Positions 7,111-63,600 of a DNA stretch of 64,000 nt are shown one piece after another. The notes beneath the pieces were generated by a model that had not been told where the DNA came from, ran no database searches, and worked only from the letters and a program-made list of their open reading frames with translations. The stretch covers positions 186,001 to 250,000 of the IMG/VR virus record IMGVR_UViG_3300037086_000360, one strand, 5' to 3'. The position numbers and the translations under genes are program-made. The number at the start of each line of letters is the position of its first letter. Within the stretch, counting starts at the first letter, position 1. The stretch comes from a virus.

Positions 7111-7117
7111 TTTTCTT

Positions 7118-7193
7118 TCCGCTGTAGCTCGAATTTGGCAGAGCGTCTAGTCGAAAGATTAGAAGGTTGGAGGTTCAAGTCCTTCCGGCGGAG
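7118..7193 (+). tRNA. tRNA-like gene with 8-nt anticodon loop (GAA centred)
   Basis: Acceptor TCCGCTG/CGGCGGA, D-arm GCTC/GAGC, T-arm GGAGG-TTCAAGT-CCTTC. Its D- and T-arms closely match the neighbour at 7038, so the two are duplicates. Anticodon stem TCTAG/TTAGA encloses TCGAAAGA, one nt longer than standard. A GAA (Phe) anticodon would put C at position 33. No CCA. Confidence 0.75.
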
Positions 7194-7200
7194 TTATTTT

Positions 7201-7207
7201 GCATATG
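7201..7207 (+). promoter_or_regulatory. GCATANT-like element between tRNAs
   Basis: TTTTGCATATGT, ending 9 nt before the 5' end of the next tRNA (7217). The seventh base is G instead of the usual T. Confidence 0.4.
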
Positions 7208-7216
7208 TCTTTATAT

Positions 7217-7288
7217 CTCTTCGTAGCTCAACGGTAGAGCAAGAATCCCTAAAATTCTAGGTCGCGGGCTCGACACCCGCCGGAGAGG
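7217..7288 (+). tRNA. Putative amber suppressor tRNA (CUA) with C33
   Basis: Acceptor CTCTTCG/CGGAGAG, D-arm GCTC/GAGC, perfect anticodon stem AGAAT/ATTCT, loop CCCTAAA giving anticodon CTA with C at position 33, T-arm GCGGG-CTCGACA-CCCGC with C54 in place of T54. A CUA anticodon reads UAG. The C33 and C54 substitutions are rare and may lower decoding efficiency or change nuclease sensitivity. No CCA. Confidence 0.75.
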
Positions 7289-7292
7289 CCTT

Positions 7293-7366
7293 GGTCCTGT
7301 AGCTCAGATGGTCAGAGCAACGGATTCTAACCCCGTCGGTCGAGGGTTCGAGCCCCTCCAGGATCT
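7293..7366 (+). tRNA. Amber suppressor tRNA (CUA)
   Basis: Acceptor GGTCCTG/CAGGATC, D-arm GCTC/GAGC, anticodon stem ACGGA/CCCGT (closing A-C mismatch), loop TTCTAAC: normal U33, anticodon CTA, A37. T-arm GAGGG-TTCGAGC-CCCTC is standard. No CCA is encoded. The anticodon predicts decoding of UAG; the charged amino acid cannot be told from sequence alone. About one fifth or more of genes here end in TAG, so wholesale recoding is not indicated. Confidence 0.85.
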
Positions 7367-7867
7367 CTAGATAGTTGGATCGTGAAGTTTTTTGATTGCG
7401 TATGAGAATGCGCTATAAAAGTCTTTTGAAGAAACCCACTTATTCCTTAGAATTACCCTTTCACTTTCTTCATCGAAGAAAACACGGATCAAATCTTTAG
7501 CATTTTTCAACATCCATTTATCATATCTATGAATTCGTTTTGCCAAGTATGTGTAAGCAATGTCGAACATTAGTTCATAATCTTTTTCAGTTTGTACTGG
7601 TGGTAAATCTTTTTTGACTCTATATGGTCTGAGATTTCTCCACTTACTCGTTGCACTTGGCCAATTTGTTTCAGCAGAATAGCCTCTAATCACACCCTGC
7701 GCAAATACCGTGATTTTGTCATCAGCTACATCAGGATTGCCACTGAAGTCAATGTTTCCATGACTGAGTTGGGCTGGAGTGGTAGTATCTCGCCAACCAA
7801 GAGAAATGATATCTTTATACGATGGCAACTGTTTGATTTTTTCATGGTCAAAATTGAAATGTTTCAT
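7367..7867 (-). CDS. Hypothetical protein, 166 aa, minus strand
   Basis: Not recognised. Start placed at 7867 (MKHFNFDHEK); the frame extends further upstream but there runs antisense to another gene. It contains W-rich segments (GWRDTTTP, NWPSATSKWRNLRPY) and a basic C-terminal half. It is the only minus-strand gene in the first 46 kb and abuts the tRNA cluster. No clear SD. A degenerate homing or DNA-binding protein is possible but unsupported. Confidence 0.5.
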   Translation of the reverse strand: MKHFNFDHEKIKQLPSYKDIISLGWRDTTTPAQLSHGNIDFSGNPDVADDKITVFAQGVIRGYSAETNWPSATSKWRNLRPYRVKKDLPPVQTEKDYELMFDIAYTYLAKRIHRYDKWMLKNAKDLIRVFFDEESERVILRNKWVSSKDFYSAFSYAIKKLHDPTI

Positions 7868-10872: not shown

Positions 10873-12705
10873 ATGAATCAACCAACTCCCAAAGCTCCCA
10901 ACATGCGTAAAAATATCGCTATTGTGGCCATACTGCTAATAGGCTATTTTGTTTTTCAGTTTTTTATTGGAGGTGGAACTACTCCAGAAATCAGCTATAG
11001 TACTTTTAAAAAGGCCCTAATTGACGGTAGGATCCAACAAGTTTCTGTTTCAACTACTGAGATCCGTGGAGTAATGAAAGATAAAGAAATTGAGAAGCAG
11101 TTTTCAACCATTCGCGTAGATGATCCAGAATTGACGAAATTACTCGAATCCAAAAATGTTCAATACTCTGGAAAAATCCAGAGCAACTTCTTATCCAATC
11201 TTTTATGGATCATAATTCCTTTTGCTCTTCTATATTTCTTTTTCATGCGACAAACTGGTGGAGCGGGCACTAATGTTCTCTCATTTGGAAAGAGTAGGGC
11301 GAAACTCAACCAACCTCTGATTGGAAAAAAGATCTCATTTAAAGATGTCGCTGGAGTTGATGAGGCGAAAGAAGAGCTTCAAGAGGTTGTAGATTTTCTG
11401 AAGACTCCCCAGCGCTTTCAGCAATTGGGTGGAAGAATCCCTCGTGGAATCCTTTTAATTGGAGCTCCTGGCACCGGCAAGACACTTCTTGCAAGGGCGG
11501 TCGCCGGAGAGGCTGGGGTTCCATTTTTCAGTATTTCTGGATCTGAGTTTGTTGAAATGTTTGTAGGAGTTGGAGCTGCGAGAGTAAGAGATCTCTTCGC
11601 TCAAGCGATGTCAAAAGCCCCTTGTATCGTTTTTATCGACGAACTTGATGCCCTGGGAAGAGCTCGAGGATTTTCTCCAGTTGGTGGATTTGATGAGAGA
11701 GAGCAAACTCTCAACCAACTCCTTACAGAGATGGATGGTTTTGATACTCGAGTTGGCATCATCATCATGGCTGCTACGAACAGACCGGAGATTCTTGACT
11801 CAGCTCTCATGAGACCTGGAAGATTTGACCGACAGGTTCTTGTTGATAGGCCAGATCTTGTTGGTCGAGAAGCCATTCTCAAGGTTCATTCAGAAGGGAT
11901 CAAGATGGCTGAGAACGTTGATCTCAAAACCATTGCTCAGAGAACTCCAGGATTTGTCGGAGCAGATCTCGCCAACATCATGAATGAGGCAGCCCTTCTT
12001 GCTGCAAGACGCAACAAGACTGAAGTTATGATGGATGAGTTTAGTGAGGCTATCGATCGTGTTGTTGCTGGTCTAGAAAAGAAAAAAAGGCTGATCAGTC
12101 CATCAGAGAAGAAAATTGTGGCTTATCACGAGGCTGGTCATGCCATTGTTTCCCATTTCTCTGGAAAGGGTGATGAAGTCCATAAGATTTCCATTATTCC
12201 TCGTGGAATTGCTGCTCTTGGCTACACAATCAATCTTCCTACAGAAGATCGTTACTTGATGACTCAGAAAGAGCTTGAAGCAAGGCTCGCTACTCTTCTT
12301 GGTGGAAGAGTCGCGGAAGAGCTCTTCATTCAGGACGTTTCCACTGGAGCCTCAAGTGACCTGATGAAGGCAACAGAGATTGCGAAAGCTATGGTCAAAG
12401 AATATGGAATGAGCTCTCTTGGACTTTCTTCTTATGAGAGACCATCAAATCCATTTCTCAAAGATAATTCTTTCTTCCCTTCTGAAAAAGATTATTCAGA
12501 AAAAGTAGCGGCACAAATTGATGAAGAAGTTAAAAACATGCTCATTAAAGCACACGATAAAGCTGTGGTTATCCTTAACACCAAGAAACAGCTTATGGAA
12601 GACTTGTCGAAACTTCTTCTTGAAAAAGAAGTCGTAGAGAAAGATGAGTTTATAAAACTCATGACAGAAGAGAAGCTGGAAGAATTGCCGCGCGCAGAAG
12701 CATAG
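10873..12705 (+). CDS. ftsH: ATP-dependent zinc metalloprotease FtsH
   Basis: Membrane-anchored AAA+ protease that extracts and degrades membrane and short-lived soluble proteins. 610 residues, close to the bacterial size. Order of parts: TM1 (about 13-32), periplasmic segment, TM2 (about 107-125), AAA domain with Walker A GAPGTGKT (197-204), Walker [15 protein letters not shown] (near 251), [24 protein letters not shown], and the zinc site HEAGH (419-423) with the later D of [13 protein letters not shown]. All key residues are intact, so it is probably active. There is no SD; the GCATAAT spacing predicts a leaderless transcript. FtsH is unusual in a phage; it could remodel the host envelope or compete with host FtsH. 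Confidence 0.93.
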
Positions 12706-12706
12706 T
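12700..12706 (+). promoter_or_regulatory. GCATANT element for gene 12714
   Basis: GCATAGT at the end of ftsH, 7 nt before the next AUG; it also forms a small inverted repeat GCATA-GTT-TATGC. Confidence 0.45.
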
Positions 12707-12713
12707 TTATGCT

Positions 12714-13097
12714 ATGCGTGATGAAAAACCGCATGGCGAATATGTCTCGATGAAGCTCAGAAAGGAGTATGAAACGGACTTTCAGTCCATGATCGATAAG
12801 TGGTATGAGGTCAATTTAAGCTCAAACCGCTTCCTTGTTTGTATTGAGGGATTTGAGTGGAATGATTGGCATAAAGACTATTTGCTTCATGGCCATATTA
12901 TCAACTACAATAACAATAAAGCAGCAATGGTAGTCAGTGATTTTGGTAGATACTACTCCGAAATTAGAGAATCGTTTCCACTATGGAAACGCAAAAAAGT
13001 AAAGGACAAGAAGCTTCTAAAAGCGATCAATGTCGCCTTTTATGCTCAAACAGCAAAAGCTCTCTTGGGTGAAAGACATGAGCGAGAAACCTATTAA
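12714..13097 (+). CDS. Hypothetical protein, 127 aa
   Basis: Not recognised. ATG 12714 fits the leaderless pattern; ATG 12750 is an alternative. Contains aromatic-rich strands (FLVCIEGFEWNDWHKDYLLHGHIINY) and a basic helical C-terminus. It overlaps the next gene by about 20 nt. Confidence 0.55.
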   Translation: MRDEKPHGEYVSMKLRKEYETDFQSMIDKWYEVNLSSNRFLVCIEGFEWNDWHKDYLLHGHIINYNNNKAAMVVSDFGRYYSEIRESFPLWKRKKVKDKKLLKAINVAFYAQTAKALLGERHERETY

Positions 13098-13767
13098 TCT
13101 TTTTGATGGAGCGTGGAAGAAGCGCCCAAATGGTTTCTTCGAACTTGATCATGATCGAGTAGAAGAAAATGAAAAAAAAGCTAAGGCTCAGAGAGGATCT
13201 CCTCTTCTCGAAAAAATATATGAGAGACATAAGAGTGAAATCTATCACGCCAAAAAGAACTTCAATTGGTTCAGAAAAATGAGAAGCAGGCTTGAGCGTC
13301 TCAATAATATGCACCCAAAACAAATCTATATTTGGGGCCACACTGATATTGAAGGAACTAAGGCTGAGGGTTGTAAATACGCTTGGGAAGACGTTGAAAT
13401 AGCTCTTCCAACTATTTTCAGACGTCTCCATATGAGATGGATCACAACCATTCTGGCTGAATCTTGTTTCAAATCTGATTTGGACGAAGCCATTCGTTTT
13501 GGAAGTGAGTGCCCAGTTCTTGAACCTGAATATCCTCAGGACAACTTTGACGTTATGTATGTCAAGGGAAAAGAAGAATTCAATGATGAGAATGACGTCA
13601 TCGAAGCTTTCAAGAAGTGGAGAGACTTCTTCCTTCCTAATCTCAAGAATGTTCCTATTGTTTGGAAGGAAATGAGTCCCAACTCGCTCACTTGGTCGAT
13701 CTTCAAGTCGAAGAGTTTTCCAAGAATACGAATGTTGCTTGCCAATCTAAAACGAAAAACTTCCTGA
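13078..13767 (+). CDS. Hypothetical protein, 229 aa
   Basis: Not recognised. Start at ATG 13078 (the frame is open from 13030, but that part overlaps the upstream gene). Helical, charged and rich in Trp and aromatics (NFNWFRKMRSRLERL; HPKQIYIWGHTDIEG). No catalytic motif stands out. It is followed by an 80-nt gap before the aminomutase. Confidence 0.55.
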   Translation: MSEKPINLFDGAWKKRPNGFFELDHDRVEENEKKAKAQRGSPLLEKIYERHKSEIYHAKKNFNWFRKMRSRLERLNNMHPKQIYIWGHTDIEGTKAEGCKYAWEDVEIALPTIFRRLHMRWITTILAESCFKSDLDEAIRFGSECPVLEPEYPQDNFDVMYVKGKEEFNDENDVIEAFKKWRDFFLPNLKNVPIVWKEMSPNSLTWSIFKSKSFPRIRMLLANLKRKTS

Positions 13768-13849
13768 AAAACAAAAATGAATTCGACACTCGTGCAAGAT
13801 ACTATCTATAAGACTATACACCACCCATGTGGGAGGAGAAAGCAACTAA

Positions 13850-14947
13850 ATGGATGAATCTGACAAACAAGACCAGGAGTTCCCTCCAGGTACAGTGCCA
13901 TCGGACCAGTGGAATGACTGGCGATGGCAAATGCGGAATCGAGTTAAAAACATTGAAGACATTAAGACATTGGGATTATGGAAAGATGACACATTGCCTA
14001 ATCCAAAGCGTCTTCCCTTCACGGTAACCCCTTATTATTTGAAAGTCGCTCTCAATTCGAAAGCTCTTCAAAAAACTTTCGTGCCGAACATGAGTGAAAA
14101 CATTGTGACATCTGACTGTACGGATGATCCTCTTGCAGAAGAACATGACTCTCCTGTCAAATGCATCGTACATCGATATCCAGACAGAGTTCTGTTCCTT
14201 GCAACAGATCTTTGTGCTACTTATTGTCGCTATTGTACAAGAAGCCGAGTGATAGAGCAAAATGGATTTACTAAGTCTGAGTGGGAAAAGGGATTCGAAT
14301 ACATCAGAGAACACGAAGAAGTTCGAGACGTTCTTATCTCTGGTGGAGACCCTCTCACATATGACGATGATAATCTTGAGTATTTGATTTCAAGCATTAG
14401 AGCAATTTCTCATGTCGAAATCATAAGAATTGGTACCAAAGTTCCAGTCGTTCTTCCCCAAAGAATAACCCCAGAACTGGTGGCAATGCTTAAGAAGTAT
14501 CATCCGTTATTCATGAGCATTCATTTCACCCATCCCGACGAACTCACAGAGGAATGTAAGACTGCATGCTTAATGCTTGCTGATGCAGGAATCCCTCTCG
14601 GAAGTCAAACAGTTTTGTTGAATGATGTGAATGATAATCTCTATATTCTGAAAGCTCTGTTCCAGGGTCTGTTAAAGATTAGAGTTCGCCCCTATTATCT
14701 CTATCAGTGTGATGTTGTTCAAGGAGCTGCCCATTTTAGAACTCCTTTGGACGTGGGCATCAGGATGATTGAGGGATTAAGAGGATGGACTTCTGGATAT
14801 GCTGTTCCACAATTTGTAATTGACTTACCGAATGGTGGTGGAAAAACACCGGTCATTCCAAATTATGTGGTTGGAACTGAAGGAAAGAACATTGTCTTCA
14901 GAAATTATGAGGGCCAATCCTATCTCTTTCCCGATATAGCATCATGA
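13850..14947 (+). CDS. kamA: Lysine 2,3-aminomutase-like radical SAM/PLP enzyme
   Basis: Catalyses migration of an amino group (L-lysine to beta-lysine in characterised KamA) using a 4Fe-4S cluster, SAM and PLP. 365 residues versus about 415 for KamA, so the C-terminal end is short. Visible: N-terminal DWRWQMRNRV, TPYYLKV, DPLAEE, HRYPDRVLF, the cluster motif CATYCRYC (about 122-129), ISGGDPL, RIGTKVPVVLPQRIT, HFTHP, RPYYLYQCD, HFRT and the PLP-lysine region NGGGKTPVIPNYV. These favour KamA over EpmB, which lacks the WxW and HRYPDR blocks. SD GGGAGGAGAAAG. Beta-lysine might serve as an osmolyte or in EF-P modification; glutamate 2,3-aminomutase activity is an alternative. Confidence 0.85.
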   Translation: MDESDKQDQEFPPGTVPSDQWNDWRWQMRNRVKNIEDIKTLGLWKDDTLPNPKRLPFTVTPYYLKVALNSKALQKTFVPNMSENIVTSDCTDDPLAEEHDSPVKCIVHRYPDRVLFLATDLCATYCRYCTRSRVIEQNGFTKSEWEKGFEYIREHEEVRDVLISGGDPLTYDDDNLEYLISSIRAISHVEIIRIGTKVPVVLPQRITPELVAMLKKYHPLFMSIHFTHPDELTEECKTACLMLADAGIPLGSQTVLLNDVNDNLYILKALFQGLLKIRVRPYYLYQCDVVQGAAHFRTPLDVGIRMIEGLRGWTSGYAVPQFVIDLPNGGGKTPVIPNYVVGTEGKNIVFRNYEGQSYLFPDIAS

Positions 14948-14966
14948 AATATGGTGGTAGTATAAC

Positions 14967-15004
14967 GGAACATGTCATAGCATAGTGGAACATGCCGTAG
15001 CATA
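14967..15004 (+). repeat. Tandem direct repeat with two ATG-NNN-TAG minigenes
   Basis: GGAACATGTCATAGCATA (14967-14984) and GGAACATGCCGTAGCATA (14987-15004) differ by two bases. Each contains ATG, one codon, then TAG (ATG-TCA-TAG at 14972, ATG-CCG-TAG at 14992). The second copy supplies the GCATAAT element of the next gene. The 9-mer ATGTCATAG is the same as in the leader at 6043. Confidence 0.6.
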
Positions 15005-15006
15005 AT
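15000..15006 (+). promoter_or_regulatory. GCATANT element for gene 15016
   Basis: GCATAAT, 9 nt before AUG 15016; no SD present. Confidence 0.5.
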
Positions 15007-15015
15007 TTATTCATA

Positions 15016-15174
15016 ATGATTTACACCTATGAACTCTATTGTAAAAGATGTGATAGGATAGTTATCCTTGAGACTGATGTACGGGTAGGAAAAAAACCAA
15101 ATTGTCCGAGTTGCAATCATAAGTTGCACGAGAAGAAAGATAATTTGGTTGCCTCTACAGGAGAAAACGAATGA
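15016..15174 (+). CDS. FmdB-like zinc-ribbon protein, 52 aa
   Basis: MIYTYELYCKRCDRIV followed by CPSCNHKL: two CxxC knuckles in the layout of FmdB/small zinc-ribbon regulators, which typically begin MPxYEYxCxxC. No SD, so probably leaderless. Its stop overlaps the next ATG (ATGA), coupling it to the outer-membrane-type gene. Confidence 0.65.
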   Translation: MIYTYELYCKRCDRIVILETDVRVGKKPNCPSCNHKLHEKKDNLVASTGENE

Positions 15175-15707
15175 AAAAATTCATTGTTATATTGTTGGCT
15201 CTTTTGTTTATTGCGCCATTTGCAATGGCTGATTTTAAGATTGGAATTTCGGGAAATTTTGAATTTACGACAAATTCCCAATTGCAGTCATTGCAGTCGG
15301 GAGATCTCACCAAACTCATCAGACCTGGAATATATTTGGAACTATATGACCCAATGGGTTTTGGAATCGATTTAACGGCAGTTACCACACTCCCAGATTC
15401 AAGCAACAACATTGTATGGTTTGCCACTATTGATCCAACATTCCATTTTCTGAATCTCAAGATCATTGATTTATCAATTTTTGCAGGACTTGGAGTAACT
15501 GGAGAAAATGCCACGGACTTTAGTAAGATAAATGCAGCAGCGTGGTTTTTTCAAATTGGTGGTGGTCCCTCGCTTCTGTTAGGACCACTATTTGTTCAAG
15601 CAAGAGCAGCAGTTAGATTTCAAATTGGAAATGGACAATTGGGATCTATAGCACCACTAAGTTTCGATGATATTGAATTAGCGCTTATAGCGGGCCTCAA
15701 ACTGTAA
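15171..15707 (+). CDS. Secreted beta-barrel-like outer membrane protein
   Basis: 178 residues with a clear signal peptide (MKKFIVILLALLFIAPFAMA, cleavage after AMA). The mature part alternates hydrophobic strands with Gly-rich turns (GISGNFEFTT, GIYLELYDPMGFGIDLTAV, AGLGVTG, FVQARAAVRFQI) and ends AGLKL, as small 8-strand barrels do. Inferred to insert in the host outer membrane, perhaps for superinfection exclusion. A terminator follows. Confidence 0.65.
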   Translation: MKKFIVILLALLFIAPFAMADFKIGISGNFEFTTNSQLQSLQSGDLTKLIRPGIYLELYDPMGFGIDLTAVTTLPDSSNNIVWFATIDPTFHFLNLKIIDLSIFAGLGVTGENATDFSKINAAAWFFQIGGGPSLLLGPLFVQARAAVRFQIGNGQLGSIAPLSFDDIELALIAGLKL

Positions 15708-16809: not shown

Positions 16810-17228
16810 TGCGACGATGGCTTACAGCATGGACACCTGAGTTAGCAAGAAAAGAAATGATAGCCAGGGAGCTTAGAAGAACTAGGCCCCTGGTTTCTTT
16901 TCCGCTTCTCAAAAAAGTGTACGACAAATTTGGAATCTTTTGGGTGACAATGCACCATGTTGAAGATATGGATGAACATCTCTGGAGTAAAATGCATGAT
17001 CTAAATAGACATGGACTCTTAGAGCTTTCTGAGTGGAAAAAAGAAATCAATCCAACTCCCTCAAGAGGTCAAAAACTTGCAAACTATTGGAGAGTAACTC
17101 CACTTGGTTTGATAGCCCTTACAAAATTTTATAGTGTCAAAGATGAAGACGTACACAAAGTTAGCAAATATTTGTTGGACCCAGAAGGAGATAAGAATGA
17201 GGCGACTGTCTTGGCAAAACGATATTGA
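16809..17228 (+). CDS. Hypothetical protein with winged-helix-like pattern
   Basis: 139 residues. Helix-turn segments (LLKKVYDKFGIFWVTMHHVEDM, HDLNRHGLLELSEW) followed by a strand pair (NYWRVTPLGLIALTKF) resemble a winged helix, where the Y-WRVTPLG element is the typical end of such domains. Start in TAATG overlap with the HNH gene. A DNA-binding role is inferred; the end overlaps the ClpP start by 32 nt. Confidence 0.5.
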   Translation: MRRWLTAWTPELARKEMIARELRRTRPLVSFPLLKKVYDKFGIFWVTMHHVEDMDEHLWSKMHDLNRHGLLELSEWKKEINPTPSRGQKLANYWRVTPLGLIALTKFYSVKDEDVHKVSKYLLDPEGDKNEATVLAKRY

Positions 17229-17808
17229 ACCCGAGATTCCAGACAGAAAATTACCGATAAACAACAATAAAAAAGATGATGATCAACAATTGGTCGAACA
17301 CATTGATGGTCACATTTACTTTTATTCAGATGTGACTTCCCTATCAGTAATTAAACTCAACAAAGTAATAAGAGAAATCACAAACAATATGCTTCCATAT
17401 AAAGAAGATGGATTGGTGTTGAAGCTTCATATCAACAGTGATGGTGGAGTTCTTCTTGATGGACTTGCCGCTCTCGATTCAATTATTTCTAATGCACTTC
17501 CCATCCATACCTATGTAGAAGGTGGAGCTGCCTCAGCCGCCACTCTTATTTCAGTCGCAGGTAAAAAAAGATTCATGCACAGACACTCTTTCATGCTTAT
17601 CCACCAAATGTCAAGCAGACTGTGGGGCAAGTATGAGGAGATAAAAGACGACAAAGAAAACTGTGATCGATTCATGAAAATGATCAAGGATATTTACAAG
17701 GAATATACAAAAGTTCCTATGAAAAAGATAGATGAAATTCTCAAACATGATTTGTGGTTTGACGCAGATCAATGTCTTGAATATGGGATGATAGATGAGA
17801 TAGTCTAG
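17197..17808 (+). CDS. clpP: ClpP-like serine protease
   Basis: 203 residues. The start at 17197 is chosen for its SD (GAAGGAG, 6 nt away). Landmarks: LKLHINSDGGVLLDGLAALDSI (substrate-binding strand), the nucleophile loop EGGAASAATLIS with Ser near residue 113, catalytic His in MLIHQM (near 136), and DLWFDADQCLEYGMIDEIV carrying the family's C-terminal Asp region. Works with an unfoldase such as ClpX or ClpA in the host, or may act as a phage prohead-type protease. The phage tmRNA tag ends in LAA, a classical ClpXP/ClpAP signal. Confidence 0.88.
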   Translation: MRRLSWQNDIEPEIPDRKLPINNNKKDDDQQLVEHIDGHIYFYSDVTSLSVIKLNKVIREITNNMLPYKEDGLVLKLHINSDGGVLLDGLAALDSIISNALPIHTYVEGGAASAATLISVAGKKRFMHRHSFMLIHQMSSRLWGKYEEIKDDKENCDRFMKMIKDIYKEYTKVPMKKIDEILKHDLWFDADQCLEYGMIDEIV

Positions 17809-17845: not shown

Positions 17846-17861
17846 GGCTTCACGTGAAGCC
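17846..17861 (+). promoter_or_regulatory. Perfect 16-bp palindrome before the pilus operon
   Basis: GGCTTCACGTGAAGCC, two uninterrupted 8-nt arms, centred 17 nt upstream of the GCATATT element at 17870. Without a loop it is better suited to binding a dimeric regulator than to termination, though it could also end the clpP transcript. Confidence 0.5.
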
Positions 17862-17869
17862 AAAATTAA

Positions 17870-17876
17870 GCATATT
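17870..17876 (+). promoter_or_regulatory. GCATANT element of the pilus operon
   Basis: AAGCATATTTC, followed after about 15 nt by SD AGGAGG and AUG 17902. Confidence 0.55.
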
Positions 17877-17901
17877 TCTATTTACCTTATAGGAGGAATG
17901 A

Positions 17902-18390
17902 ATGAAACGTCTATTTCTTATCTTGGCCCTTGCCTTGATTGGCACATTGGCTTTCGCTGCAACAACGGGAACTATTACTCTCAATGGAATAGTTGCAGCC
18001 AGCACAAACATTACAGTTACACCACAGGCTGGGTTCAATACTCTTGATCTCACCACAACTGCAACTAATGTCTTGGTGGCAATAATCAATGAACAGACCA
18101 ACGACCATAGTGGATATACGGTTACAGTTGCCTCGGCCAACTTGGCAGGAGCCGGAACTGCGCCTTTCTTAAAAGATGTTGCTAGTGGAAATACTTGGCT
18201 TTATACACTTCAATATAATGCAGTCGCCGTAGTGTTTGCAAGTGGAGTATCAACAATATCAAATACTGTCGCAATGACTGTACCAGCGGGAGTTAATAAG
18301 AACCTCAACATATCATATGTTGGAACCAATACCCTTGCTGCGAGCAACGCTTACGCCGATACTCTTACGTTTACAATTGCAGGAAAATAA
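17902..18390 (+). CDS. Putative major pilin of a sigma/archaic chaperone-usher pilus
   Basis: 162 residues: signal peptide MKRLFLILALALIGTLAFA, then an Ig-like, all-beta, Thr/Asn/Ala-rich domain (GTITLNGIVAASTNITVTP ... SGYTVTVASANLAG) ending DTLTFTIAGK. First gene of four overlapping genes with chaperone and usher, which defines it as the subunit. No cysteine pair. Subunits of this kind receive a donor strand from the chaperone and then polymerise through the usher. Strong SD AGGAGG suggests high expression, as expected for a major subunit. Confidence 0.75.
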   Translation: MKRLFLILALALIGTLAFAATTGTITLNGIVAASTNITVTPQAGFNTLDLTTTATNVLVAIINEQTNDHSGYTVTVASANLAGAGTAPFLKDVASGNTWLYTLQYNAVAVVFASGVSTISNTVAMTVPAGVNKNLNISYVGTNTLAASNAYADTLTFTIAGK

Positions 18391-19124
18391 TGAAACTCAA
18401 TAGAAATAGCCAGGCTGGTTTGACTAGTCTGGCATTTTTGTTCTTCTTTTTGGTGAGTGTTGGTGTAGCCTCTGCCTTCAGTTTTTCACCAATCAGTTTA
18501 AGTTTCTCTCCATCTGGTGAAAACACAATCCAAAGTTTCAAGCTTACCAATACCTCAGATGTCACAGTAGCAATCAAAGTTACCATGGTATCTCGTGAAA
18601 TGGCTGTCGATGGAACTGAGACTTTGAAACCAACCGATTTATTTGCCATCTATCCATCAAGAATTATTCTCGACGCAAGCTCGGTCCAAATTGTAAAGGT
18701 TCAGTGGAAGGGACCATTTGATGTTTCAATGGAACAAAACTTCAGGATCATTGCTGAACAAGTTCCTGTTGATTTCAATGGCCCAAAGCCAGTAAATATT
18801 AGAATCCTTATCCGCTATATGGGAGCCATTTATATTACTCCCTCAAATGCCGTTCCAAACGTTGTCCTAGACTCAGTCAAACACGACACACAGAACCTTG
18901 CTATTACACTCTACAATAAAGGAAATGCCCATGTTCTTATGAGCAACTTGACACTTCAAGTCAAGACAAGTGAGTCCTTTAAAATTTATTCTCCCGAGGA
19001 ACTAAAGGGCTTCAATGGAGAGAATATGCTTGCAGGTTTGAAGAGAACCTTTGTTGTCCCTCTCCCTCCAGACATGAAGGGCGAAGATTTTAGTGTCACG
19101 TTTAAGTTTGATTCGATTCGTTAG
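18390..19124 (+). CDS. Periplasmic pilus chaperone (PapD-like, archaic type)
   Basis: 244 residues, start in TAATG overlap with the pilin. Signal sequence, then mature FSFSPISLSFSPSGENTIQSF, the typical first strand of COG3121 chaperones. Next are LTNTSDVTVAIKVTM, AIYPSRIILDASSVQIVKVQWKG (donor G1-type region) and FRIIAEQVPV, the conserved FRI/LxxxExP element. The second domain ends in a DFSVTFKFD strand. It would hold pilin subunits in the periplasm and hand them to the usher. Confidence 0.85.
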   Translation: MKLNRNSQAGLTSLAFLFFFLVSVGVASAFSFSPISLSFSPSGENTIQSFKLTNTSDVTVAIKVTMVSREMAVDGTETLKPTDLFAIYPSRIILDASSVQIVKVQWKGPFDVSMEQNFRIIAEQVPVDFNGPKPVNIRILIRYMGAIYITPSNAVPNVVLDSVKHDTQNLAITLYNKGNAHVLMSNLTLQVKTSESFKIYSPEELKGFNGENMLAGLKRTFVVPLPPDMKGEDFSVTFKFDSIR

Positions 19125-21417
19125 AATCATATTCTTTCTTCTCACAATCTCATCTTTTTCAGCCCAAAGCTCGAATATTGTTCCTCTTGATTTTACTATT
19201 AATGAACAATCTCAAAAAACAATCAACTGCATCATTGTTGATAACCAACTATTGTCTATAGATAGAACAAAGTTGATTGAAGTTGTTCGTCCCATTCTAG
19301 ATGAATCAACCTTCTTTAAGCTTCAAAATGAAATAGCAAACAAAGATTTCGTGCCTCCAAAAGATTTAGAGAAATATGGTATTATATCAAAATATGATTC
19401 CAATTTGTTGAAGCTGGAACTAAATATTCCTATTCAAGAACAAAGGGTTCAAGTCCTTAGAATGCCTGGCAGCTCGATTCCAAACTATGTTGCCGCAACT
19501 CCAGCAGATTTCAGTGTCTACCTTAATATGAGAACAACCATGAATCTGCAGACAGCATATGATATCCAAAACTCTATAACCTTGCCCACTCAGCTTATCC
19601 TTCAACCTGTGATTAACTACAAAGGATGGGTTCTTGATACCAGCGTGACAAGTAGTGTCATTGAGTACCCTAGCATCAGCCTCGATTACGCTAGAGTTGT
19701 TCATGATTTTCCAGACAACTCACAACGACTCACTATTGGTTCCGTCTTTTTCCCAACTACTGCTTTTATGGCACCATTTCCTGCTTATGGAGTTGAGTTC
19801 ACGCGCAATCCAATCATGACTCAAGCTCTTCGAAGTCCATATCTCATTCGACAAAGCTTTGAACTTTCTCAGCCATCTGCAGTAAGTATCATACTCAACG
19901 ATAGAACTCTGGAGTCCTATCAATTGAATTCAGGCAAATATGTCCTTCCAGATATTCCTTTCATTGGAGGGTTAAATGACTTAGTCATAAATACAAATGG
20001 CCAAATAACCCATACTGAAGTTTCGTATGATGCGAGACTTCTCGTTGAAAATGACATGTCGTATTCTGTGAACGTAGCAATTCCACAATGGGAGCTACAA
20101 GTTCCAATATTTTCAGGCTATTTCCTGTATGGAATCCTTCCATTTCTAACTGTTGGTGTCAATATGCAGGCAGGACTTGGCCGTCAAATGGAAGGAGTTG
20201 AGGCTGTTTATTCTACTCCATATGGAAGTGTTCATGGACAGTTTGGATTGAGTGAAAGTCCAATCGATTTTGCGGCAGAAATCGACTATCGACTTGTATT
20301 TGCATATGGAAATCTCCGTCCTACCGTGACCTTCAGCGCCCAATACACTGGACAAAACTTCTTACTCCCAGGTTTTGATTACAACAGCAACATTTACGCC
20401 TGGCTTTTTTCTGCAAGCTACGGTCAATCTCTTCCATATGGCATTGGGCTTAGCTTGGGGGTTGGATACCAAGTGGGATTGAGTCCAAACCCCGATCAAG
20501 CAAGTGCGAATATTACTCTCACAAAACAAATCTTCAAAGATACAAACATAAGTTTGATGTTCACAGTTGCCTACCAAGCAGGCAATCCATTGAAGTTTGA
20601 AGGATATTTTGGTCTAGCTTCTGTTGCACTTGGAGGTAAAGAGACCACCAACTTCAACTCCCAGCTTGATGGGCAATCAGCCTCAGTAAATGCCACCTAT
20701 CAGCCAAATCAGAGTCTTCCGATGTTTTCAACTTTCTTGGCAAAGAGTCCAGATTTGAATGGGGCTATTTCGGCGAACTATAATGTGCCATTCACTGAAA
20801 GTTCATTGACAGAATCTTTTTCACCAACAACAAACAGTCTCGTTCTCTCTGCCGGTGTGGCGATTGTAATGGTCGAAGGTCATTTTGGAATCACAAGACC
20901 AATCTCAGATAGTTTTGCTCTCATTATTCCTCAAGACAATATGGCTGGTCAAACTGTCGTTGCAAACAAGCAGGCTGAAACCTATGATGGCATGGCTATG
21001 AAAAACTTCAACATTGGTCTTTCACAGTTGCCATCCTATACCTTAGATCTAGTGACCCTTAGTTCTCCTACCGCCCCTATAGATACGAACGTGGGAGACA
21101 GTATAAGAGTCATGAAGCCAACTTACAAGAGTGGAATCGCTCTATTTGTTGGAACAAAGGCAGCAATTTCCATAAAAGGAAAGCTCACATTTAATGGACA
21201 GCCTTTCACTTATCAATCAGGACAAATCAAAGGAAATACTAGTGTCACCTTTTTCACAGATGAAAATGGAGATTTCGAAGCCTACGGTTTGAGTCCAGGA
21301 GATTATCAACTCACCATCAATGATCTTGAGGGATACAGTCAGAAAATTACAATCCCAATAGCAGCCCCGGCTTCTTATAATATAGGAACGATTGTTGTTC
21401 AGGAGAAAAAGCAATGA
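19093..21417 (+). CDS. Outer membrane usher of the chaperone-usher pilus
   Basis: 774 residues. Signal peptide (FVRIIFFLLTISSFSA), N-terminal domain with NEQSQKTINCIIVDNQLLSID, then a long barrel of alternating strands with usher-like blocks (VLPDIPFIGGLNDLVI near the plug; YGVEFTRNPIMTQ; PYGIGLSLGVGYQVGL). The C-terminal domain has ITIKGKLTFNG-type strands and an ENGDFEAYGLSPGDYQLTI element, the conserved C-terminal usher sandwich. The GTG start overlaps the chaperone gene by 32 nt; TTG 19108 is an alternative. Forms the secretion pore that assembles the pilus on the cell surface. Full length, no interruption. Confidence 0.85.
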   Translation: MSRLSLIRFVRIIFFLLTISSFSAQSSNIVPLDFTINEQSQKTINCIIVDNQLLSIDRTKLIEVVRPILDESTFFKLQNEIANKDFVPPKDLEKYGIISKYDSNLLKLELNIPIQEQRVQVLRMPGSSIPNYVAATPADFSVYLNMRTTMNLQTAYDIQNSITLPTQLILQPVINYKGWVLDTSVTSSVIEYPSISLDYARVVHDFPDNSQRLTIGSVFFPTTAFMAPFPAYGVEFTRNPIMTQALRSPYLIRQSFELSQPSAVSIILNDRTLESYQLNSGKYVLPDIPFIGGLNDLVINTNGQITHTEVSYDARLLVENDMSYSVNVAIPQWELQVPIFSGYFLYGILPFLTVGVNMQAGLGRQMEGVEAVYSTPYGSVHGQFGLSESPIDFAAEIDYRLVFAYGNLRPTVTFSAQYTGQNFLLPGFDYNSNIYAWLFSASYGQSLPYGIGLSLGVGYQVGLSPNPDQASANITLTKQIFKDTNISLMFTVAYQAGNPLKFEGYFGLASVALGGKETTNFNSQLDGQSASVNATYQPNQSLPMFSTFLAKSPDLNGAISANYNVPFTESSLTESFSPTTNSLVLSAGVAIVMVEGHFGITRPISDSFALIIPQDNMAGQTVVANKQAETYDGMAMKNFNIGLSQLPSYTLDLVTLSSPTAPIDTNVGDSIRVMKPTYKSGIALFVGTKAAISIKGKLTFNGQPFTYQSGQIKGNTSVTFFTDENGDFEAYGLSPGDYQLTINDLEGYSQKITIPIAAPASYNIGTIVVQEKKQ

Positions 21418-22325
21418 AATCACGAATCATTTTAATCTTGTTGATGTTTATGTCTCTTTCAATTGGAGCCCAGACATTAACTTTTTCAGTTCCTCCAGGA
21501 AATCCTACTGGAACCTATTCTCCTGATACTGGTGTTACTATAGTTAGCACAATGACTATTCGGCATACTGGAGCCGCTTGTAGCTATTTTATCACTTTTG
21601 CTTCTGGATCATCTGGAACCTTCACATCAAGAACAGCAAAAAGTGGTGCCAACATTCTCAACTATCAAATCTATGACAACATAACCAATAAAAATGTTCT
21701 CGAGGATTTGACAGCGAGTCCAACATCTGCAAATGTGTTGAGTGGTTCTTTCGCAGCAGGAACTGCGACTCAGGTCCAAACATTCACAAGCTATGTTGCA
21801 ACAACACAACTTCCTCCGGTTGGAACCTACACAGATGCTATAAGAATGGACATTTATATTGGAACAATAGCCGCTCACGGGGCATCTGTCAGAAATCGTA
21901 CCTTCACAGAAACCATGACTGTTCCAACTCTTCTCGACATATGCCTCGTTCCAACCGGTTCGTCCTTCAATGTTGCAAGCACTTCTACCACTTTCAACTT
22001 TGGAACTCTTTCAACTGGACAAAATCTTGGTGATGATTTCATGGTGAGATCTAATGGATTAAACACAGTGAAGGTCACTTCTACAAATGGACAAGTGTTA
22101 AAGAATGCTATTAGTGGAGATATTAGTTCAGTTCCATATATCTTTGCTGTTAATGCTGTTGCATACACACTACCAGCCGCCACTGCTGTAACCATCATAG
22201 CGAGTCAACCAGCAACTGTAGCGACTGGAAAGCGATACCCAATTCTAGTAACCATAGGCACCATAGGGTGGGTCAGTGCGGCCACATATACAGACACGAT
22301 CACTTTTACCGCAACTGCAAACTAG
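21414..22325 (+). CDS. Spore-coat-U (SCPU) domain protein, probable pilus tip/adhesin
   Basis: 303 residues; ATGA overlap with the usher. Signal peptide (IILILLMFMSLSIGA), then two beta domains. The second has the SCPU pattern: STSTTFNFGTLSTGQNL followed by about 70 residues and a final YTDTITFTATAN. Tip adhesins of Csu-type pili carry this domain in a tandem arrangement. There are only two cysteines in the mature part. Inferred to cap the pilus and contact a surface. Confidence 0.78.
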   Translation: MKSRIILILLMFMSLSIGAQTLTFSVPPGNPTGTYSPDTGVTIVSTMTIRHTGAACSYFITFASGSSGTFTSRTAKSGANILNYQIYDNITNKNVLEDLTASPTSANVLSGSFAAGTATQVQTFTSYVATTQLPPVGTYTDAIRMDIYIGTIAAHGASVRNRTFTETMTVPTLLDICLVPTGSSFNVASTSTTFNFGTLSTGQNLGDDFMVRSNGLNTVKVTSTNGQVLKNAISGDISSVPYIFAVNAVAYTLPAATAVTIIASQPATVATGKRYPILVTIGTIGWVSAATYTDTITFTATAN

Positions 22326-22331: not shown

Positions 22332-22359
22332 TTAGATAAATTCATAGAAAGAATTGTTG

Positions 22360-22683
22360 ATGACTAAGAAAACTCTCGAAAGATATGCATCCCAGATTAA
22401 TGCTCCACAATTAGACGATGATAAAGATTTGGTAGAAGAAGCCAAAATGCTTCTCGGCGACACAACATTCAGAATGTTGCCCAGGAGCAGTAGAATTTAT
22501 TACATGCGACTCTTCGTAAAACATCGCTTTTTCAAAGTTAGATGTCACAAATGCAGAAAAAGAGTCAATGATTTATATGATTTCATTCAATTCAAAAATC
22601 CTACATGGTGTATGGACTGTATGAGAAATGAGAGTCCAAATACTCTCTTTGAAATCAAGGAAAGCGTAGAGGAATTCATTTAG
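22360..22683 (+). CDS. Zinc-finger-like protein, 107 aa
   Basis: Helical N-terminal half, then CHKC (in VRCHKCRKRVNDLYDFIQF) and CMDC (TWCMDCMRNE), a treble-clef-like CxxC...CxxC pair about 25 residues apart. ATG 22360 preferred over TTG 22354. Function unknown; a nucleic-acid or protein adaptor is possible. Confidence 0.6.
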   Translation: MTKKTLERYASQINAPQLDDDKDLVEEAKMLLGDTTFRMLPRSSRIYYMRLFVKHRFFKVRCHKCRKRVNDLYDFIQFKNPTWCMDCMRNESPNTLFEIKESVEEFI

Positions 22684-60672: not shown

Positions 60673-63600
60673 ATGCCTAAAATAGCTTTGGAATTCAATC
60701 TAGCTTTTAGAACCTCAACAAAAGAACTTCAAAAAGGTTTGAAGACTGCCTCTAGTATGATGAGTGATCTGACAAAGTCAGCAGGACAATTGATTAGTGA
60801 ATTTGGCGGTGGACTCGAGAAGAAAATTATTGATGAATTTGGTGCCCATGGTCCAATGATAGGCACCTTTAAGCAAAGTATTGCTGAAATAGGAAAGAAT
60901 TTAAAAGACACTGTCGCTTCTTCTACAAAAGGAATTAGTGCTGGAGCGACCGACATTTTACAGAAAGCTCAATTTATTCACGTTTCAGAGGGAATAGAAA
61001 GCATTAATAAGGCCATGGGAAGAATGGTCGAGGGATTTGGTGTTGCTGGAGCAGAGGGCCAAAAAATGATGGTTGAAATGACAGCCGCCATGGCAGGTTT
61101 GACATCTAAAGACAATATTCAATACTTCAATCAATTCGTAAAACAATCTGAAAATCTGCGACGGAATATGGACGACTTTACTCCACAGCGTTTTGGAAAA
61201 ATAGCCGGAAATTTTGAAAAAATACAAACAGCATCACATATAATTGCTGAACTTCAGAAGAAAATATCACTATCAACTGGAATAGAAAAGAAAAATCTCG
61301 AAGAGACTCTCACCGCCCAACAAAAATCCATTAAAAATCTCATAAGAGAGAATGATGCTTTGGCAAAACAGGGTGAGATGATTAATCGAATCAAAGAAAA
61401 AGCAAAAGATCTTTTTGGGAAACTAAAAATGCTCGCTGGAGTTGCCAGTCTTGCCGACATTGTGAAACGTGCGGCAGAGGCTCAAAACAATGCAGCTAGA
61501 ATAGCTTTCAAAACTGGAATCAATGGCATCGCAGCTGTAGATGATGCCATGGGTCAATTTGTCAAAACTAATCAGAATTACTCTGATCAAGTTGGTCGAG
61601 CATCATTATTAATGGGAAATGCCATGACTCAAGCCGCTGGGGAAGTGAGCGCCAATACTGCTGATATCGCTGAAAGTTGGGGCGAGTTGGCCTCTCTAAG
61701 AGTGAGAGGACCCATTAGTGAGATGAAGGATTTGACTGAAATCAGTTATCAAATGCAAAAAGCATTTGGTATTTCTTCTGGAGAAGCTGCTAATTTTATT
61801 CGTGACTTGAAGGTTATTGGAGGTCTTGGAACAAAAGAAATTAAATCTGCTGCCGAAGGTTTGCTCGGAGTTCAGAGAGAACTTGGTCTCATGCCTGGTG
61901 AGGCAAGAGAAGTTAGTGCTACTGTCGGTGTCGTGATGCGACAAATAAGAGCGTTTGGTGGATCTGCAAAAAACATTAGCGTAGTCACAAAGGAAATTGG
62001 AAAATTGGTGGCCACGTTTGGAGACGTGGGTCTTGAAGCCTCTGATGCTACGAAAATGATTGAACAGATGATGGACCCATCTAAGATTAATGACAATATT
62101 ATGCTGTGGCATGGATTAGGAATGACGGCTCAAGAGGGAATGCAAATGGCAATGGGTGAGGGTAAAAATATGGCTGGAATGACCACTAAAATGGTTGGTT
62201 TGGCTAAAAGTTTGAAAGCCCAGGCCGGTGGTAACTATATAGTGTTAGATTCTTTAGCCAAAATGTATGGAATGACATATCAACAGGTCATGGCATTGAC
62301 TCAAGCTGAGGTAAAAAGAACTGATAAACAAATAGCTGATGCGAAATTACAAGAAGCCGCCGCAGCGGCACAGAGAGGTATTCTCGATCAATTAAAGCGC
62401 GCGTGGAATAGTATCGCGGTCATAGTTGATAAAGCTGTACTTCCAGCCATAAGCGGTATCAGTTGGGTATTAGAAAAAGTATTGCCCCTTGTCACAAAAC
62501 TTGCCGGTGCCTTTGATACCACTAAAGAAAAAGCAGGATCATTCGGAATGATTTGGAAATGGATTGGAAAAATTGGAATTCCAGTAGTGGCATTTGGGAT
62601 GTTCAAGCTGATCAAAAATGGAAAACTTCTTGCTGGTGTTTTTGGTGAAAAGGGTCTTCTTAAATCTTTCGGAGCCTTGATCAAAAGAGCTCCAATCCTA
62701 AATAAGTTGTTCAAAAACATAAAGGTTCCTGAGGTACCGGGCGGAGCAGTTGGGACTAAGGGCGGAGGCATCTTCAAAGGCATCGCTGATGCACTCAAAG
62801 GTATTAAACCCGCTCAATTGCTAGCAATTGGTGCGGCCATCTTTTTCATAGCTGCCGGTATTGCACTTATCGTGTTTTCGGTTTCATTGTTGGCCAAAGC
62901 GCTTAAAGACTTGAATCTGGATCAATTGAATGCTCTTGTTCAAATCATGGCTATCACCATGGGTGGAATGATTGCAATCATGATTGTATTTGCAGTTGTT
63001 ATATTCTTGTTGGGATCAGCCGGATTGGCCGCCGCACCGGGTATTTTGGCCATTGGTGCCGCAATTTTCTTGATCGCAGCTGGTGTTGCTCTGATGATGT
63101 TTGCAATGGTTCTACTTATAAGAGAAATAGCTGGATTGGGTAAGAATATAATGCCTGCTGCTGTGGCTTTTGGAATGATGATTGTAATGTTGGCCGCCCT
63201 AACTATTGCTCTGTATTTCTTAATACCTGCAGTCATTGGACTAGGAGCTGCGGGATATGCATCAGCGGTAGGAATACTTGCTATTGGTGTTGCCATTTTT
63301 CTAATGGGAGCTGGGGCTGCTCTTGCTGGATTTGGTGTATTATTGATGGCTAAGGGTATGGTTCTGTTGGGACAGAATGCAGAAGCTGCGGTAAAAGGCG
63401 CCATGGCTCTCGTTGTTGCTCTTGCTGCCACTGCTCTTGCTTTATTTATTTTCATGAAAGCAGTGGGACCAGCGATTATAGCAATTGCTCTTTTGGCTGG
63501 CATGGCTTTGGTATTCTTCCTAGCAGGAAAGGCCGCACTTTGGCTTGCAGTTCCACTTGGAATAATTGCGCTATCATTAACCGCAATAGTTGGCATGACA

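Follow-up and report, generated by a model that had tools for sequence, protein, structure and literature searches.

A spirochaete-like chaperone–usher pilus operon on a jumbo-phage-type genome

Described systems and the window operon

Archaic or sigma chaperone–usher (CU) pili, such as Csu of Acinetobacter, belong to the SCPU family and are encoded by bacterial operons in the order pilin, chaperone, usher, and tip protein. Here, we analyzed a window of 64,000 nucleotides (nt), bases 186001-250000 of the linear, 250,111-bp IMG/VR virus record IMGVR_UViG_3300037086_000360, in which four intact open reading frames (ORFs) on the + strand follow this same order and fill positions 17902-22325. We consider it likely that they form a sigma/archaic-like CU operon that derives from a spirochaete, is maintained as a functional module in the genome of a jumbo phage, and is driven by a phage element, GCATATTT. 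The machinery is of a known kind; new, as far as tested, are its presence in complete form on a jumbo genome of phage type, under the element's own regulation, and its probable spirochaete origin.

The window operon shares with Csu a CsuC-like chaperone, an SCPU domain in a two-domain tip protein, and an usher with the FimD-type fold. In contrast to Csu, it lies on a branch with Spirochaetota and, more distantly, Bdellovibrionota, Cyanobacteriota, and Alphaproteobacteria, has a single cysteine-free pilin, is found on a phage-type replicon, and encodes an usher and a chaperone that fall under the Pfam Usher and PapD_N cut-offs. The CU operons of Spirochaetota (loci L015, L113, L060, L011, L116, and L118) contain the same four genes in the same order, with a 4-nt usher/tip overlap in most of them and a hairpin after the pilin gene in most lineages, whereas their identity to the window operon is only about 20-40% and the operons of L015 and L060 are surrounded by ordinary bacterial genes.

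An initial annotation, made from the sequence alone, had described a complete CU operon of four full-length, overlapping genes, each with a signal peptide. This description holds. Homology of all four genes and the folds of usher and chaperone identify the operon, and the ORFs overlap by 1 nt (pilin/chaperone), up to 32 nt (chaperone/usher), and 4 nt (usher/tip); the usher start is either GTG at 19093 or TTG at 19108. By inspection, all four proteins begin with a Sec-type signal sequence with a basic start, a hydrophobic core, and an A-x-A-like site.

Only the tip protein passed a Pfam cut-off (SCPU, PF05229, E 6.2e-7), while usher, chaperone, and pilin had no Pfam match. Pfam and PHROGs alone thus overlooked the usher and the chaperone, both of which were identified by tblastn on plasmids together with a genome scan. 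In the plasmid search, the usher matched an Indioceanicola usher over 93% of its length (E 5e-43) and a Leptolyngbya protein annotated as usher (E 5e-36). The chaperone is 34-39% identical to its relatives, and a scan of genomes with its alignment yielded 67 loci in Spirochaetota, Cyanobacteriota, Alphaproteobacteria, Bdellovibrionota, and others. Among all collected loci, 73 contained a match to the chaperone, 66 to the usher, 26 to the pilin, and 17 to the tip protein, and the gene order was the same at many of them. While the window proteins fall below the Usher and PapD_N cut-offs, 25 of 30 usher relatives and 28 of 30 chaperone relatives match these families.

Structure prediction agreed with these assignments. 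The AlphaFold model of the usher (pLDDT 87.3) aligned over its full length with FimD 3rfz (Foldseek E 7.8e-36, TM 0.68, 812 columns) and has the barrel, plug, and N- and C-terminal domains of an outer-membrane usher; a profile of 30 usher relatives likewise matched solved FimD structures (8e-15). The chaperone model (pLDDT 91) has the two domains of PapD-like chaperones and matched CfaA/CsuC in Foldseek (E 1e-10), and a profile of 30 chaperone relatives matched CsuC (2.5e-10). A Foldseek comparison of the usher with viral structures found no full-length usher.

The two-domain architecture of the tip protein was apparent from its alignment, and over 259 amino acids (aa) it is 36% identical to its counterpart in a Spirochaetaceae operon. 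In the pilin, which has no cysteine, the alignment revealed a signal peptide, a conserved, alternating hydrophobic N-terminal strand that is donor-strand-like (ATTGTITLNGIV), and a C-terminal strand (YADTLTFTIAGK) with the motif YxDTxTxTI. Because the pilin profile had no match among solved pilins, a pilin fold is only presumed from these features.

Table 1. Features of the operon, its flanks, and the host-like cargo; positions refer to the window unless a piece of the virus record (L number) is named.
Feature	Position	Strand	Remarks
Leader hairpin GGCTTCACGTGAAGCC	17846..17861	+	Between ClpP-type gene and pilin; fold z -2.2, modest
GCATATTT element, promoter-like	17870..17877	+	24 nt upstream of pilin start
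Strong Shine-Dalgarno AGGAGG of pilin gene	17892..17897	+	Sequence
Pilin	17902..18390	+	162 aa; at most 46% identical to pilins encoded in bacterial CU operons
RNA hairpin	18399..18442	+	Directly 3' of pilin stop, within chaperone signal-peptide codons
PapD/CsuC-like periplasmic chaperone	18390..19124	+	244 aa; homology, profile, AlphaFold/Foldseek
Outer-membrane usher	19093..21417	+	774 aa; tblastn, profile, AlphaFold/Foldseek
Two-domain SCPU tip protein	21414..22325	+	303 aa; Pfam SCPU; CsuE-like position and architecture
Left flank, outside operon: ClpP-type protease, phage family	17134..17808	+	PF00574 1.7e-26; phrog_94 4e-38
Right flank, outside operon: Cys-rich protein	22354..22683	+	109 aa; PHROG matches weak, no Pfam family
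Right flank, outside operon: VWA-domain protein, phage family	22769..23611	+	phrog_7371 1.2e-32
Host-like cargo	L172:10787-19522; L168:1095-2072 and 12153-15260; L169:13154-15043		Pieces of virus record

Expression signals and spirochaete relatives

The phage-style promoter element proposed in the initial annotation proved to be an intergenic motif that recurs on the coding strand throughout the record. In the 144 kb analyzed initially, CATATTT was the most over-represented intergenic 7-mer, and GCATATTT occurred 24 times on the coding strand as compared to once on the other, with 17 of the 24 coding-strand copies between ORFs (p 5e-10). The strand counts over 244 kb were 53 and 3. Copies are located, for example, at window positions 17870, 2083, and 22689, the last lying upstream of the VWA gene, and in other pieces of the record (L080:2812 and L079:14617), while the related virus contigs that were checked showed no strand bias of this motif. 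Such a distribution suggests that GCATATTT is likely a promoter or an RNA-processing signal of the phage; its function as a promoter, the remaining part of the proposal, is presumed. The left border set by the initial annotation, 17846, is the first base of the leader hairpin, which is followed by GCATATTT.

The hairpin after the pilin gene has a folding energy of -22.9 kcal/mol (z -4.65) that was equalled by none of 200 shuffles. Most Spirochaetota and Bdellovibrionota operons have a strong hairpin of other sequence at the corresponding site, and alphaproteobacterial operons mostly lack one; those seen in spirochaete and Bacteriovorax CU operons are at loci L060, L089/L118, L028, L012/L021/L025, L090, L047, L052, L059, and L070. 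In the pap and daa operons, such elements hold the major pilin in excess. By analogy, the hairpin in the window is probably a pilin-excess element, acting as an attenuator or stabilizer, and may have the same role as in pap and daa.

In a tree of chaperone, usher, and tip protein from 36 operons, the phage operon fell into one group with nine operons from Spirochaetota (100/100). The chaperone alone grouped it with L015 and L028, from metagenome-assembled genomes of a Spirochaetaceae member and a Treponema (99/93), and the spirochaete grouping was kept in a chaperone and usher tree from which the longest rows had been removed (96). These trees are confined to close relatives. The chaperone is present in 39 of 393 sampled Spirochaetota genomes. 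Judging from these relationships, the operon was most likely captured from a spirochaete, and spirochaetes are most likely the host group of the phage. A 32-nt chaperone/usher overlap common to the window and L015 was discarded as evidence, given the uncertainty of the start codons and the variation among overlaps. When spirochaete genomes were searched at the DNA level for spacer matches, ftsH dominated the result, which has no bearing on the host.

The operon on the phage-type record

The operon is not an obvious chimera, and four independent checks point to its residence in the record: codon usage, GCATATTT, the flanks, and GC content with coding direction. Synonymous codon usage of the four genes equals that of the other window genes (z 0.1 to 0.4). 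The ClpP-type neighbor upstream has homologs in 30 IMG/VR contigs, and the VWA gene downstream has homologs in 222 phage records, with 56% protein identity in IMG/VR contigs L009/L010. Coding on the + strand and uniform GC content extend over 244 kb of the record. An assembly chimera, in which bacterial DNA was joined to a phage contig, would fit the metagenomic source of the record and the bacterial origin of all four genes. It is nevertheless very improbable: a phage-type element is found within 62 nt of the left border, where a bacterial fragment would not carry it correctly placed, codon usage is identical to that of the neighbors, phage-family genes lie close on either side, and both GC and the GCATATTT motif are uniform along the record.

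At 250,111 bp, the record exceeds the 200-kb jumbo-phage threshold. It encodes phage-type replication genes (a primase, a DnaB-like helicase, and a DnaE-type polymerase), homing endonucleases, tRNAs, and a tmRNA, and a probable tape-measure gene runs off the window up to the contig end; a search of the record for an integrase found none. The phage status of the record is based on replication genes, layout, and the probable tape-measure gene, and not on capsid or terminase. To us, the record looks like an incomplete jumbo-phage genome, although another type of large element keeps some plausibility because lipoprotein-like genes and genes for sensor kinases, a substrate-binding protein, and DnaK are present as well.

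Several points weigh against a working, spirochaete-derived phage module. Terminase (TerL PF03237, phrog_2), HK97 capsid, and sheath were searched in the 250-kb record and not found, and a portal match (E 0.003) was below the cut-off and not significant, so the record is either a fragment or very divergent. The branches in the trees are long, about 1.4-2.1 changes per site, and the donor can therefore be placed no more precisely than in its phylum. Searches of viral contigs with single proteins and with the chaperone, pilin, and tip alignments, which had no positive control and in which records near the window's own were possibly masked, yielded no relative that carries the operon; there is thus no sign of selection across phages. 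Finally, a virulent phage gains little from an organelle that is slow to build unless infection is long.

The lack of terminase, HK97 capsid, and sheath matches and of a significant portal match would fit a large extrachromosomal spirochaete element, such as a phage-plasmid or mobile megaelement, whose pilus benefits the host, and the histidine kinases, response regulators, substrate-binding protein, DnaK, and tandem lipoprotein-like genes of the record also favor such an element over a lytic phage. However, the single coding direction and the even GC content along 244 kb, the phage-type primase, DnaB-type helicase, and DNA polymerase, the probable tape-measure gene, homing endonucleases, tRNAs, and tmRNA, the IMG/VR classification, and the lack of an integrase all argue for a phage, and we consider this alternative improbable.

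Carriage of CU genes by phages is rare but not unique. The initial annotation knew of no characterized phage-borne example, and a search for ushers in 50,697 phage records revealed one credible carrier, Escherichia phage PhiR41_1 (PV340561, L166), whose record is circular, 108 kb long, and submitted as a complete phage. Like the window, PhiR41_1 carries a chaperone and an usher, with a possible pilin in addition; unlike those of the window, these are a canonical PapD-type chaperone and FimD-type usher, adjoining an AraC-family regulator and an integrase. They represent ordinary enterobacterial cargo, related to the window operon by family only, and the genes of the cassette are mostly annotated as hypothetical. 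The earlier statement is to be qualified accordingly. The remaining usher matches look like host DNA, for most of them judging by title, size, and annotation alone: they comprise records with Salmonella-assembly titles, pieces of an Acinetobacter 'phage' deposited in multiple contigs, and short contigs without annotation. 'Bacteriophage sp.' MW462191 (L001, L164, and L165) has a sigma-fimbriae operon with SCPU pilins, a chaperone, an usher, and an SCPU tip protein, but its contig also contains ccm, glnE, a beta-lactamase, and a gene-transfer-agent-like cluster; apparently a piece of bacterial chromosome, it was rejected as a phage precedent. PHROGs contains an unnamed usher family, phrog_7543. 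A literature search of open-access papers found no published account of a phage-borne CU pilus.

The cargo-like position of the PhiR41_1 genes next to an integrase raises the question of whether the window operon is also a passenger, that is, a captured host operon without present benefit that is perhaps being lost. That no relative of the phage was found to carry it would agree with this. On the other hand, the four ORFs are intact, their codon usage is window-like, the record's own element stands at the head of the operon, and the regulatory hairpin is retained; therefore, long residence under constraint is indicated, and we regard a passenger as unlikely.

Some further features of the record were observed. 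Its host-like cargo (Table 1), unusual for a virus record, includes a substrate-binding protein, sensor kinases, response regulators, tandem lipoprotein-like genes, and DnaK. The polymerase appears split, as L079:1171-3474 and L079:11660-13708 match the front and rear of one DnaE-type family (phrog_405) and lie ~8 kb apart. Many zinc-finger paralogs of ~280 aa with starts like MYKCKICxKEF (pieces L170, L171, L172, L168, and L169) are probably HNH-type homing endonucleases. In a tRNA cluster at window positions 7117-7367, two genes were read as having a CTA anticodon (amber suppressor-like), while TAG is a common stop in the genome; stops may possibly be read through now and then. Recoding of TAG was rejected for the window, in which TAG terminates many genes and the standard code leaves a long ORF at 60673 uninterrupted. 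A radical SAM protein at 13850-14947 resembles lysine-2,3-aminomutase. Near the pilus operon, a phage-borne FtsH with an extracytoplasmic domain (10873-12705) and the ClpP-type protease (17134-17808) form a cluster of envelope quality-control genes.

Possible role of the pilus in infection

The analysis establishes the content and intactness of the operon, the homology of its genes, the folds of chaperone and usher, the placement in the trees, GCATATTT, and the hairpin; for the operon as a phage module, we infer expression, pilus assembly, and a benefit to the phage. During infection, the phage's own GCATATTT upstream of the pilin gene would drive transcription of the operon, and the post-pilin hairpin would keep pilin above chaperone and usher. 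The pilin and the tip protein would be exported via Sec and then bound by the chaperone, and the usher would thread the subunits across the outer membrane of the host, giving a thin fiber with the SCPU protein at its tip on the infected cell.

The initial annotation had put forward changes in host adhesion or surface access, in biofilm behavior, or the exclusion of other phages as possible effects. Our first guess for the benefit is that infected cells would adhere or aggregate differently, and our second is the masking of receptors against other phages; on sequence data, the two are inseparable. As a full alternative, the pilus, or the usher itself in the outer membrane, would serve superinfection exclusion by blocking or hiding receptors from other phages. 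Genes that alter the cell surface are a usual phage strategy, and the UDP-glucose dehydrogenase and nucleotide-sugar epimerase encoded in the record fit a general remodeling of the surface. The sequence holds nothing to tell exclusion from adhesion, and a tip protein, here retained with 36% identity to its chromosomal counterpart, would be needless for a simple shield. We consider exclusion as the purpose rather doubtful, though less so than a passenger or an extrachromosomal element. The broader proposal, to which we hold only tentatively, is that a jumbo phage, by means of its own promoter, equips the spirochaetes it infects with a pilus, holding the cells in place or together or excluding rivals, and this would be the first complete bacterial surface organelle whose assembly through the host outer membrane is controlled by a phage.

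Phages are known to alter the surface sugars of their hosts and to carry single surface proteins. A full assembly line of chaperone, outer-membrane pore, fiber subunit, and tip, situated downstream of the element's own signal, would widen the control that phages have over the host surface. The record further hints at a large phage that infects spirochaetes, a phylum for which few phages are known, and its operon makes it possible to test clearly whether the adhesion of infected cells can be altered by a virus.

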